The notes under the pieces were generated by a model. It made no database searches, had not been told where the DNA came from, and saw only the letters and a list, made by a program, of their open reading frames with translations. The translations under genes and the position numbers were made by a program. DNA of 64,000 nucleotides, from assembly GCA_016194975.1 (NCBI GenBank), contig JACQAM010000008.1, forward strand, positions 62,001 to 126,000. Direction: 5' to 3'. This DNA is from Bacteroidota bacterium (GTDB lineage Bacteria > Bacteroidota > Bacteroidia > Palsa-965). Positions 17,578-20,879 of the stretch are shown piece by piece. Within the stretch, counting starts at the first letter, position 1. The number at the start of each line of letters is the position of its first letter.

Positions 17578-19188
17578 TTACTTTCCCCTATTCAGTCTCC
17601 TGTAAGAAAGTTTTTTCCAAATGTTATGTGCCAACTTTATTTCTTTTTGTGTCAAACCGAAATGCTCTTTCAAAATTATTTGGTTTGTGATTTTCAAAAC
17701 GTCTTCAATGTCGGTTTTGTTGCGAATGAGTTTGTCAATCTGTGGAAGCAAAGCAGCATTGTCCAAATGATAAGGAAGCAAAATTCTTTCTGCTTCGTTT
17801 GGCATTAACTCTAACACACCGCCTCCGTGACTTCTTCCCGAAACTTCTGTGAATGCAAGTGAAAGTGAGTTGTAATAACTTGCTGTCATTGCCTTAATAT
17901 TTGTGTTCGGTCGCACAAAAACTCTGTGCATTGTATCGGTTGTATATGCTTCCGCTTGGTTAATTATCAATCTCGGATAAAGATTGTTTCGTCTGATGAA
18001 TAGGGCATCCGAAATTTTTAAAGAAGGAACTACAAACCAATCATCACGAATTCCAGTTTTATATCCTTTGTGAATTCCTAAACTTTCACCGTGTGCAATA
18101 TATTTTACTGCTCCGTTTTTCTTGTTTAAATTTTTTCGGTCAGAAAAAACAAGCAAGTGTGCTTTTGCTTTTGAGTGTTTGTTTTTCTCCCAATCTTTTT
18201 CGGTGAAGATTACTGAGTTCACTTGAACACTTCTTCCAACCATTGGTCTTGCGTAATCTTGCAAGTCATATTCTTCAACTGTTGTCAATGGAACTGTAAA
18301 GAAGTCGTTTGAACCTGTTGTAATTCCAACTTCAACTCTTGCGAATTTTTCAAGCGTTGGAATATTTCTACGCTTTGCAATATTTTCTAAAAAATCAATT
18401 TCGCCTTGCTCTAAAAAGTAGAAAGTCCATTTGTTGCTCTTAAAATCAATTTTCTTTTGTGGGCTTTTTAACCGTGCTACATCAAGCGTTTTCAATTCGC
18501 TTGCATCACGCAACTCAATGTGTTCAATGTTGTGTTCTTTAGAATTATTCTTTTCGCAAAGAAGTAAAACAACTTCCTGTTGAATGTTTGGGAAAACTAA
18601 TTTCTCAAATGAAATGATGTTGATTTTGTTGTAGAAATGTGCAAGAAAATTTCTCAACTGTTGTGCAAACGAAACTTGTAAAATTTCTGCTGGCAAAACG
18701 AAACCGATTTTTCCACCTTTGTCTTTGAGCAGAAGCGATGAACCCACGACAAACGAAACCCAAGCGTTTGTAAGTTTGGAATAAGTCAAACCTGCTTTGA
18801 TAAAAATATCTCCTGCCTCAACTTGTTGTTCTCTGTCAAAAAACTGGTATCGTATGTAAGGCGGATTACCAACAACTAAATCAAATCTTTTTTCTGTGTG
18901 GTTGCAATAAGTATGGAAATCATCATTTATGATTTGTTTGTTCTTTAAATTTATTTGCTCTGCTTTTTCTGCTTCTTCTTGGTCAAGTTCAATTGCTGTG
19001 ATTGATTTGTATTTGAACTTTTGCTTTTGCAGTTGTTCTAAAAAAACACCATCACCGCAACTTGGTTCAAGTATGTCAAAGTCAGTGGTGCCATTGATGC
19101 CCCAACGCAAAACAAATTCTGCAATTGGTTCGGGAGTGTAAAAACCGCCTCTTAATTTTTCGGCTGATGCTTCTGTAATTAATTTCAT
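17578..19188 (-). CDS. N6-adenine DNA methyltransferase of a type II-like R-M system
   Basis: 536 aa. Motif X-like FYTPEPIAEFVLRW is followed by SAM-binding motif I (LEPSCGDGVFL, about residues 40-50) and the catalytic motif IV N108-P-P-Y111. About 300 residues of likely target-recognition domain come after. The order X-I-IV-TRD is that of gamma-class enzymes such as M.TaqI. It should methylate adenine in the host's recognition site and protect it from the nuclease at 19599-20780. Its ATG overlaps the controller stop by 4 bp (ATGA), so C and M are translationally coupled. A sample of 60 bases here (18001-18060) has 21 G+C against 30 in 15001-15060, which fits recent acquisition. Confidence 0.9.
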   Translation of the reverse strand: MKLITEASAEKLRGGFYTPEPIAEFVLRWGINGTTDFDILEPSCGDGVFLEQLQKQKFKYKSITAIELDQEEAEKAEQINLKNKQIINDDFHTYCNHTEKRFDLVVGNPPYIRYQFFDREQQVEAGDIFIKAGLTYSKLTNAWVSFVVGSSLLLKDKGGKIGFVLPAEILQVSFAQQLRNFLAHFYNKINIISFEKLVFPNIQQEVVLLLCEKNNSKEHNIEHIELRDASELKTLDVARLKSPQKKIDFKSNKWTFYFLEQGEIDFLENIAKRRNIPTLEKFARVEVGITTGSNDFFTVPLTTVEEYDLQDYARPMVGRSVQVNSVIFTEKDWEKNKHSKAKAHLLVFSDRKNLNKKNGAVKYIAHGESLGIHKGYKTGIRDDWFVVPSLKISDALFIRRNNLYPRLIINQAEAYTTDTMHRVFVRPNTNIKAMTASYYNSLSLAFTEVSGRSHGGGVLELMPNEAERILLPYHLDNAALLPQIDKLIRNKTDIEDVLKITNQIILKEHFGLTQKEIKLAHNIWKKLSYRRLNRGK

Positions 19189-19505
19189 TGGTCGGTTTTT
19201 TTTGTTTTCAAATATTTTACTTTTTTTTCTGCTACTTTAAATACTTCATTAGACAAATCTTCTTCGTCCATTATCTGATAAGCAACTGCATCACTCAAAA
19301 AAGTTATCAGTAAATCTTTGTCGCTTACTTTGAAATATTTTGCAAACTTTTCTATCAGTTGTTTGGTCGGCTTGCGATTGTTCTTCTCAATCTTACCCAA
19401 CATTGAAGTATCAATACTCAATGCTTTCGCAACTTCACGCAAAGGAAGATTCTGCTCCTCACGAAGTTTCTTTACTGTTTCGCCGAATGTTTTTTCTAAT
19501 TTCAT
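19185..19505 (-). CDS. XRE-family controller (C) protein of the R-M system
   Basis: 106 aa. Residues of about 8-63 form an XRE helix-turn-helix (PLREVAKALSIDTSMLGKIE is the recognition core). The C-terminal 40 residues are charged and may form a helix. C proteins dimerise on palindromic C-boxes and time the appearance of nuclease relative to methylase. An 8-bp-arm palindrome lies just before the start (19506-19526), overlapping a TACCTTTG -7 element, as expected for autoregulation. The gene is coupled to the methylase by an ATGA overlap. The nuclease gene ends 93 bp upstream. Confidence 0.85.
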   Translation of the reverse strand: MKLEKTFGETVKKLREEQNLPLREVAKALSIDTSMLGKIEKNNRKPTKQLIEKFAKYFKVSDKDLLITFLSDAVAYQIMDEEDLSNEVFKVAEKKVKYLKTKKTDQ

Positions 19506-19526
19506 TTTGGACTACTTCAGTCCAAA
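19506..19526 (-). promoter_or_regulatory. Candidate C-box operator of the R-M controller
   Basis: This is a perfect inverted repeat, TTTGGACT-ACTTC-AGTCCAAA. The core GACT-N5-AGTC resembles the GACT-N3-AGTC C-boxes described for other controller proteins, though with a longer spacer. It lies between the -7 element and the ATG, and overlaps the predicted transcription start. Only one clear palindrome is present, whereas many C systems have two. Confidence 0.6.
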
Positions 19527-19530
19527 GGTA
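19523..19530 (-). promoter_or_regulatory. -7 element TACCTTTG of the C-M operon
   Basis: The minus strand reads TACCTTTG, 17 bp before the controller ATG. It shares bases 19523-19526 with the C-box, so a bound C dimer would interfere with polymerase. Confidence 0.55.
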
Positions 19531-19598
19531 GTTACTTACAAATGAGCCACAAAAATATTTCCGAAAAGAGTTTTCAACAAGATTGAGCTGAAAGATAT

Positions 19599-20780
19599 TT
19601 ACTTGATTTCTAAAGTAAACTCACTTTTCTTTTTGGTCTTATATAGAGTGGCATTCTTACCAATGAGGTTATCTTTTGCAATCACTTTCTTGGCTTCTCC
19701 CCAACTTATTGAAGTCATTGAGTTTTTCTGTTCGTAGGAGCGGGTATCGGTTCGAGGGTTATGTGTGAGCGTAAGTTTAAAACTGCCTGACGGCTTGCCG
19801 TCAATTACAATATTGAAAGTTCCTTCTGCTCTTTCAAGATGTGATGTTTCTGGCTTTGTATCTCTCTTCCATTTGAGAGAAGTAAAAACGGCGTCCCTGA
19901 AATAATGGCGTTGGTCAATGCCTTTAGTCTTGCCTTTTTTGAAAAGCATTGAACCAGTCGGGTTCGTGTTTGACCCTTTCGGAATATTCAAATCTCTTTC
20001 GGTGAGTTTACCGCTTTCCCAAAGCAACTCACCTTTCTTGGAAATACTACCAACAACAACAGCAGCAGATGATGTTATGGTTACTGTTTTTTTTGTTCCT
20101 CTGAATTCGGTCGGGATTTTTGCGATTGCTCTCTTCGGAAATATTTTTGAAATGATGTTTTCAGTTTCTGTCCTTTTCGATTTCTCTGCTTTGTCCTGTG
20201 CTGCTTTTCGTTCTGCTTCTGTCGGAACAACTTTAGCTTTCACCAAGTCAGCAATAATTTTCTTTGAGAGTTTTTTCAGGTTCGGGTCGGTGAAATCAAA
20301 AATGCCTTTGAAATAATCTTTTAGTTGCTCAACAATTTTTCTGTCTGACTCAACTGAATTGTCAATGCTTACAAGTAACGATGCTTCAACATTTGTGAAT
20401 AGTCCTTGCGATGTGAGATTGGAAGAACCGATTATGAGTTCTGATTTGTAGTCACCTTCAAACAAATAAATTTTCGGGTGAAAGATTGTGAATGAAGGTT
20501 GGTAAAAAACAAAAGCGTTTATGTCCAAATTGAGAAGTGCTAATAATGCTTCTTGTGAAGTTCCCTTTTGGTCAACGCCTGTAACGATTGTAATAATGTT
20601 GAGATGCTTTTTAGCTGCTGCAATATGTTTTGAAAGTCCGTTTACACCTGCCTGACTTGCAAATGCAGATATACCTGTGAAGGTGCGAAAGTTATTGTCT
20701 GCAAAGAATTTGATTAGCTGTTTACCAACTGAATGTTCTGATGCGGCCTCAAATCCTTGTCCTAAAAGTGTAATGTTCAT
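19599..20780 (-). CDS. PLD-superfamily restriction endonuclease
   Basis: 393 aa. H101-P-K103 followed by G118-S-S-N121 is the single HxK...GSxN motif of the phospholipase-D nuclease superfamily. One motif per chain implies a dimeric active site, as in BfiI or Nuc. The arrangement resembles the NgoFVII-type restriction endonuclease PLD domain. The C-terminal half (about 200-393), with IAKIPTEFRGTKKTV and YFRDAVF, is probably the DNA-recognition part. It is the likely R component of the R-M set with the downstream C and M genes. It has its own -7 element (TACATTTG, 20808-20815) and is AT-rich like M. Confidence 0.82.
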   Translation of the reverse strand: MNITLLGQGFEAASEHSVGKQLIKFFADNNFRTFTGISAFASQAGVNGLSKHIAAAKKHLNIITIVTGVDQKGTSQEALLALLNLDINAFVFYQPSFTIFHPKIYLFEGDYKSELIIGSSNLTSQGLFTNVEASLLVSIDNSVESDRKIVEQLKDYFKGIFDFTDPNLKKLSKKIIADLVKAKVVPTEAERKAAQDKAEKSKRTETENIISKIFPKRAIAKIPTEFRGTKKTVTITSSAAVVVGSISKKGELLWESGKLTERDLNIPKGSNTNPTGSMLFKKGKTKGIDQRHYFRDAVFTSLKWKRDTKPETSHLERAEGTFNIVIDGKPSGSFKLTLTHNPRTDTRSYEQKNSMTSISWGEAKKVIAKDNLIGKNATLYKTKKKSEFTLEIK

Positions 20781-20807: not shown

Positions 20808-20815
20808 CAAATGTA
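20808..20815 (-). promoter_or_regulatory. -7 element TACATTTG of the nuclease gene
   Basis: The minus strand matches TAnnTTTG, 27 bp before the ATG at 20780. It suggests that the nuclease is transcribed separately from the C-M pair. No matching C-box was found here. Confidence 0.45.
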
Positions 20816-20847: not shown

Positions 20848-20879
20848 CCCGCCCGAACGTACCGTTCGGTACGGGCGGG
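20848..20879. repeat. Strong GC-rich hairpin between R-M locus and tRNA-Arg
   Basis: An outer stem CCCGCCC/GGGCGGG encloses a second stem GTACCG-TT-CGGTAC, with a four-base GAAC bulge on one side. It stands out as GC-rich in an AT-rich stretch. It could act as the tRNA transcript's terminator stem, although no T-run follows on the minus strand, or be a REP-like dispersed repeat at the edge of the acquired segment. Confidence 0.7.

Follow-up and report, generated by a model that had tools for sequence, protein, structure and literature searches.

In this study, we describe a predicted restriction-modification (R-M) cassette in the genome of a Bacteroidota bacterium, located in a stretch of 64,000 nucleotides (nt) of contig JACQAM010000008.1, which is referred to here as the window. 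Three genes lie on the minus strand of the window in the order R, C and M. R (19599-20780) encodes a 393-amino-acid nuclease of the phospholipase D (PLD) fold, a probable restriction endonuclease resembling BfiI and NgoAVII. C (19185-19505) encodes a 106-amino-acid controller protein of the XRE/HTH_3 type with a long C-terminal helix, and M (17578-19188) encodes a 536-amino-acid N6-adenine DNA methyltransferase with an M.Eco57I-type C-terminal domain and an NPPY motif. The reading frames of C and M share four nucleotides (ATGA). A preliminary description of this DNA had placed the three genes on one strand with such an overlap, and open reading frame (ORF) analysis bore out their coordinates, their order and the 4-nt junction. 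The locus is best read as a Type II-like R-M cassette in which R and M would share a recognition site, and a palindrome at the start of C is the predicted operator through which C would repress its own operon.

The predicted operator, TTTGGACT-GAAGT-AGTCCAAA (19506-19526, minus strand), is a perfect palindrome of 21 bp that directly adjoins the start codon of C. It is the sole match in the window when up to three mismatches are allowed and has none itself (shuffle mean, 0.43). The 4.1-Mb genome of the organism holds one exact copy, and the next-best sites carry two mismatches; two such copies were considered as additional operators and rejected, as they seem to have no connection with the cassette and belong to a stretch that L019 and L020 have in common as a repeat. 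The TTTG at the left end of the palindrome completes a -7 box, TACCTTTG (19523-19530, minus strand), as had been claimed, and a -33 TTG is present on the same strand at 19550-19552, with a spacer of 19 nt to the -7 box. TAnnTTTG is the Bacteroidota -7 consensus (PMC7366714, PMC9723704). Because the box is positioned at -12 to -5 in Flavobacterium psychrophilum (PMC9723704), the start of the C-M message is predicted at 19518, and the palindrome would extend from about -8 to +13, covering the predicted start point as well as the TTTG of the -7 box. An operator dyad is thus present at the promoter of the C gene itself, and binding of C to it is predicted. A 21-nt inverted repeat (95% complementary) was also observed, with one arm at the -33 element in the R-C spacer (19550-19570) and the other inside R (20129-20149); it looks longer than expected by chance, and relatives do not conserve the arm in the spacer.

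The R-C-M set comprised the window and 11 R relatives from one search of genome contigs, to which L053 and L129 were added by later searches. L012 contributes R only, as its contig stops just past R and holds no C, and L127 and L128, which look identical to the genomes of L010 and L011 (with equal identity figures), were not counted as new. The order R-C-M was found in 10 of the 11 loci retrieved through R, which come from several Bacteroidota orders, and also in L053 and L129. The palindrome is kept in all 13 distinct R-C-M loci, including the window, and is exact in 11 of them (the window, nine of the ten relatives and L129), with one mismatched inner pair in L007 and L053; the rest of the R-C spacer, unlike the palindrome, is not conserved. 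In the window and its ten relatives, TAnnTTTG precedes C in every locus, 17-18 nt from the ATG, and a TTG stands before this box in eight of the 11 when a spacer of 17-21 nt is allowed, the spacer being 19 nt in all eight. The C-M junction is a 4-nt overlap in eight of these loci and a gap of 2-3 nt in three. No second dyad was detected within 150 nt upstream of C in any of the 11, so that one dyad per 150 nt is found instead of the classical two-site C-box with its distal activating site.

Viral contigs were searched as well. They yielded no confirmed R relative. The exact operator pattern matched seven times, each time with none of the three genes in the stretch examined; with 16 bases fixed, this number was judged to be near what chance would give. 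One of the matches (L123, 5361-5381) has a GAATT spacer, as do several R-C-M loci, and stands before a small unknown ORF; it could be coincidental.

A separate promoter without a visible C-box had been proposed for R, and the comparison upheld this: R has a -7 box of its own, TACATTTG (20808-20815, minus strand), with neither a -33 TTG nor a dyad. Among the window and its 11 R relatives, TAnnTTTG was found upstream of R in eight of 12 loci (including the window), a correctly spaced TTG in two, and a dyad comparable to the operator in none within the 150 nt before R. Judging from the missing -33 element, the R promoter is weaker-looking than the C-M promoter. The arrangement differs from the classical operon with C upstream of R, in that R comes first, with a separate -7 box, and C precedes M. 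No terminator-like site was found on the minus strand of the 93-nt R-C gap, and read-through from R into C-M is therefore possible. This would allow the palindrome to work as RNA, namely as a hairpin beside the C start codon of a read-through R-C-M message that tunes translation or slows the polymerase, and an 8-bp stem does form in the predicted RNA of the R-C spacer. However, a message from the predicted start at 19518 contains the right half only, the left half stays tied to the -7 box throughout the family, and the sequence of the arms tracks the recognition helix of C (see below), which a hairpin would not need. An RNA function is considered very unlikely.

The relation of R to restriction enzymes, on which the preliminary description depended, was examined by profile, sequence and structure searches and was supported. 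R matched Pfam PLDc_2 (expectation value (E) 2.9e-8), scored 23.6 bits against RE_NgoFVII, narrowly below the cut-off of 23.8, and matched BfiI (E 7e-4) and SauUSI in phmmer. The predicted structure has a mean predicted local distance difference test (pLDDT) score of 72. With this model, Foldseek returned BfiI first (E 1.6e-11), followed by SauUSI and NgoAVII, and the best matches in VIA-align were SauUSI (Z 17.6, root-mean-square deviation (rmsd) 2.2, 164 residues aligned) and BfiI (Z 15.2, rmsd 3.3, 177 aligned). With regard to a possible B3-like DNA-binding domain at the C-terminus, the VIA alignments cover mainly residues 1-228; those of Foldseek to BfiI and NgoAVII span 414-451 columns, the C-terminal part of the model being partly below pLDDT 50. 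Residues H101, K103, N121 and E132 are invariant in an alignment of 12 sequences and align with BfiI in phmmer, and we take them to be the counterparts of the BfiI catalytic residues. R thus has in common with BfiI and NgoFVII/NgoAVII the PLD nuclease fold and a single line of H, K, N and E motif residues, and it may resemble them in a DNA-reading C-terminal part, although sequence identity to BfiI and NgoAVII is low (12-16% in structural alignments). On sequence and modelled fold, R is placed among the PLD-fold restriction enzymes (BfiI, SauUSI and NgoAVII).

SauUSI, which is among the nearest folds, is a Type IV enzyme, and R has diverged much faster than M: its identity to the window copy is 49% in L016 and 40% in L129, versus 86% and 92% for M. 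Either R evolves much faster than M in these loci, or a related R has replaced it. Both observations would fit a reading in which the PLD protein is not the cognate nuclease of M but a separate one (for example, modification-dependent) that travels along with C-M, the latter being a methylase unit. Nevertheless, the Pfam scan of R revealed no helicase domain, unlike SauUSI, and BfiI and NgoAVII, which have the same nuclease fold, are Type II enzymes. R and M also occur together wherever the contig of an R-C-M locus is long enough to show it, and even where C is lacking: convergent R and M genes with a 4-nt overlap, but no C, were found at 34-35% identity on plasmids from Roseobacter litoralis and from a Yoonia sp. 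On a Lysinibacillus plasmid, M (38% identity) lies next to a C-terminal fragment of R. Because R and M are adjacent without C on the Roseobacter and Yoonia plasmids, we argue that they are cognate, and a non-cognate R is considered very unlikely. R-M is therefore read as an old pair, and C probably joined it within the Bacteroidota.

M exceeded the Pfam cut-offs for M_Eco57I_C (E 1.1e-34) and Eco57I (E 6.9e-14) and matched the PADLOC Type II methylase model MTase_II PDLC03267 end to end (E 5.2e-201). According to these matches, it is an Eco57I-type N6-adenine methylase, a family known from R-M systems. The collections searched yielded no closely related M that has been characterised. C matched Pfam HTH_3 (E 1.4e-11), and its structure model consists of six helices. 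As a small XRE/HTH_3 protein inside an R-M operon, it has the characteristics of a controller protein. The C.Csp231I chain was absent both from the phmmer matches of C (at E 0.1) and from the 50 structural matches listed, but this does not prove that such a relationship is lacking.

With a profile of C, relatives were found in 55 of 395 Bacteroidota genomes at E <=1e-15, and a class search found them in 72 of 395 at E <=1e-20. From the first search, 40 regions were fetched, fewer than the relatives listed, and 39 of them have an intact C, after removal of L069, which stops inside C and was missed by the ORF search. The class search provided 66 loci, again fewer than listed, and leaving out L127-L129, which belong to the R-C-M group, gave a held-out set of 63. 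The dyad pattern, (T/G)GAC-N5-7-GTC(A/C) and close variants within 60 nt before C, was set after inspection of the first 39 loci and then frozen, and the test consists of the 63 later loci only. Since the held-out loci are related among themselves and to those of the first set, they should not be taken as 63 independent cases, and two of their C proteins have the first 60 residues in common with another. In the first set, 32 of 39 loci have TAnnTTTG in the 60 nt upstream of C, versus 19 of 202 other ORFs, and a dyad precedes C in 24 of 39, overlapping or abutting the -7 box in 21, against a background of 3 in 202 other ORFs and 207 in 39,000 random 60-mers. Of the 63 held-out loci, 59 have TAnnTTTG, 45 have a dyad, and in 42 the dyad overlaps the -7 box.

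The operators split into TTTGGAC and TTTGAC types. Among 33 proteins sharing less than 70% identity, the residue of C most strongly linked to operator type, out of 106 positions, was number 34, which lies where the recognition helix begins; none of 1000 permutations was as strong, although this test leaves shared ancestry in place. Position 34 is Ser in 14 of 15 proteins with the TTTGGAC type, while the 18 with the TTTGAC type have Ala (10), Ser (7) or Thr (1). Together with the conservation of the palindrome alongside C across orders, this supports the tie between C and its palindrome that had been claimed earlier, and we infer that C reads the dyad, since recognition helix and operator type go together in the wider family.

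Of the 36 first-set loci with a gene after C, 26 have a DNA methylase there, and among the others are Type I and III restriction subunits, BrxA, HepT and unknowns. L075, L076 and L080, which are of HTH-Fic length and have no following gene, were excluded from this count. Following C in the held-out set, where one protein may match several families, were DNA_methylase (18), N6_N4_Mtase (10), Eco57I (10), D12 (2), HepT-like (6), BanI (2), AccI (1), Thoeris TIR (1) and other families. Because a methylase is commonly next, C before M is usual in the controller family and no oddity of the window locus. Several members were also observed in other settings. One stands directly before BrxA of a BREX system (L084, 4511-5477), and L075, L076 and L080 encode 349-amino-acid proteins with a C-like N-terminal helix-turn-helix (HTH) and a TGAC-type dyad upstream; L075 was scanned and contains a Fic domain. 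The genome of the window itself holds a second R-M system (L017, 6144-8965, contig C23) in the order C-M-R with a BsuBI/PstI-type nuclease. The C of that system is 43% identical to the window C, and its promoter is of the same build, with TAATTTTGGACAGTAAATGTC upstream and a GGACA half-site.

Two dyads occur in a few relatives. In L054, L058, L133, L134 and L138, where C5 methylases are next, the second dyad lies 38 bp upstream, and L141, whose next gene was not identified, also has two dyads 38 bp apart. This spacing resembles the EcoO109I class, and the upstream dyad is a possible activating site. One-site and two-site forms therefore coexist in the controller family. In the window, C could accordingly be imagined as a classical activator-repressor in the style of C.PvuII and C.AhdI, which at low level activates its own promoter from an upstream site and at high level represses it, R being raised only indirectly. 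The match of C to the PADLOC Control_protein models (E 3.5e-6) and the resemblance of its model to the C.AhdI and C.BclI structures (Z about 10) are in keeping with this. However, the window and its ten nearest R-C-M relatives have their single dyad over the -7 box and start point, the C-M promoter is already near consensus at both -33 and -7, and C precedes M rather than R. For the window system, an activator-repressor is considered unlikely.

The three genes appear to have been acquired together. The cassette stretch has a guanine-plus-cytosine (GC) content of 36.0%, the lowest value of all 3.4-kb segments, compared with 43.3% for the window. The flanks of 11 compared loci show near-zero mutual similarity, with two short tblastx matches over all pairs, and because the flanks differ between loci, the three genes are taken to move as a cassette. 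Compared with loci from other families and orders, the M of the window shows 84-92% identity, while the housekeeping protein MetG shows 55-66% between the genome of the window and other families of its class. GC content and unrelated flanks support transfer of R-C-M as a unit. R starts about 130 nt beyond the 3' end of a tRNA-Arg gene. The arrangement of metG followed by tRNA-Arg(CCT) on one strand was found in L106, L107, L108 and L110, and in none of five loci of the same genus (L100-L104), so no clean empty site can be named. A long GC-rich hairpin (20848-20879) lies between tRNA-Arg and R. It was considered as a member of a repeat family, which was rejected since it is the only copy in the genome, and it may either terminate the tRNA unit or mark the boundary of the insertion.

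Taken together, these features suggest, in our view quite probably, that the locus is a mobile R-C-M cassette in which C acts as a repressor dedicated to its own operon, C-M, and R is expressed constitutively from a weaker-looking promoter. In a new host, the C-M promoter, being near the Bacteroidota consensus, would be read at once and produce an early burst of methylase. C, translated from the same short-leader message, would then dimerise on the single 21-bp palindrome. Because this single site covers the -7 box and the start point, bound C should exclude RNA polymerase, and C and M would be throttled to a low steady level, while R would be made constitutively from its separate, operator-free promoter. 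In this scheme, DNA binding, repression rather than activation, the timing, cleavage, and a recognition site common to R and M are all deduced from the arrangement of the locus and its relatives.

Several points weigh against this autorepressor scheme. The anatomy of the locus does not account for how R would be delayed, and since R also has a TAnnTTTG box, the view of its promoter as the weaker one could be wrong. R is far more diverged than M in L016 and L129. Within the controller family, the dyad as defined is missing from 15 of the 39 loci in the first set and from 18 of the 63 held-out ones, relatives with a second dyad 38 bp upstream (L054, L058 and others) could activate as well, and shared ancestry may contribute to the link at position 34.

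Comparable regulation has been reported elsewhere. In the Kpn2I system, C acts as repressor at a strong M promoter and also keeps its own level in check, and R is expressed from a weak, constitutive, C-independent promoter (PMC6237814), a logic like that proposed here. Kpn2I differs in having three transcription units and a C site within the C gene that acts as a roadblock, whereas the window has a C-M operon with one promoter-covering site. The long controllers C.Csp231I and C.EcoO109I are like the window C in their length of about 100 residues, their C-terminal helical extension and the 5-bp separation of half-sites, and R of Csp231I is partly or largely C-independent (PMC4321490, PMC4824078). 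Unlike the single GGACT-N5-AGTCC site and C-M operon of the window, Csp231I has two CTAAG-N5-CTTAG sites and a C linked to R. The half-site GACT/AGTC is that of the classical C-box (PMC4321490), but the second, activating site is missing here. HsdC of Mycoplasma gallisepticum is an apparent autorepressor before hsd genes (PMC5282649), which differs in its direct repeats, its Type I genes and the lack of a separate R promoter. Ecl18kI-like methylases repress themselves through an operator overlapping the promoter, as proposed here (PMC3874152), by means of an N-terminal HTH within M, while the HTH of the window is a separate, overlapping gene. The regulatory logic therefore resembles precedents in Kpn2I and Mycoplasma HsdC, and the layout differs. 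An uncommon pairing and gene linkage had initially been claimed; these precedents, and a methylase after C in most of the family, weaken that claim of rarity. As for the family, literature searches yielded no paper, in the passages and listings examined, on a Bacteroidota-wide controller family, and one Bacteroidota C-R fusion (Niabella) is mentioned in PMC3850674.

A broader proposal, to which we give slightly better than even chances, is that a family of small controllers governs otherwise unrelated Bacteroidota defence systems, including Type I, II and III R-M, BREX and others, through one promoter code in which TAnnTTTG supplies the left half of the operator, so that cassettes would arrive switched on and then silence themselves, methylase first. 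If true, incoming defence genes in Bacteroidota would spare their new host by a simple, transferable rule, namely that the promoter is its own repressor site. With the -7 box itself forming one operator half, the strength of the promoter and the binding of the controller could not evolve separately. The operator code TTTG(G)AC-N5-7-GTC(C)AA could be read from sequence, making many uncharacterised controllers predictable and testable. Cross-talk between co-resident systems might likewise be forecast, as in the genome studied here, which has two such systems with GGACT and GGACA half-sites.

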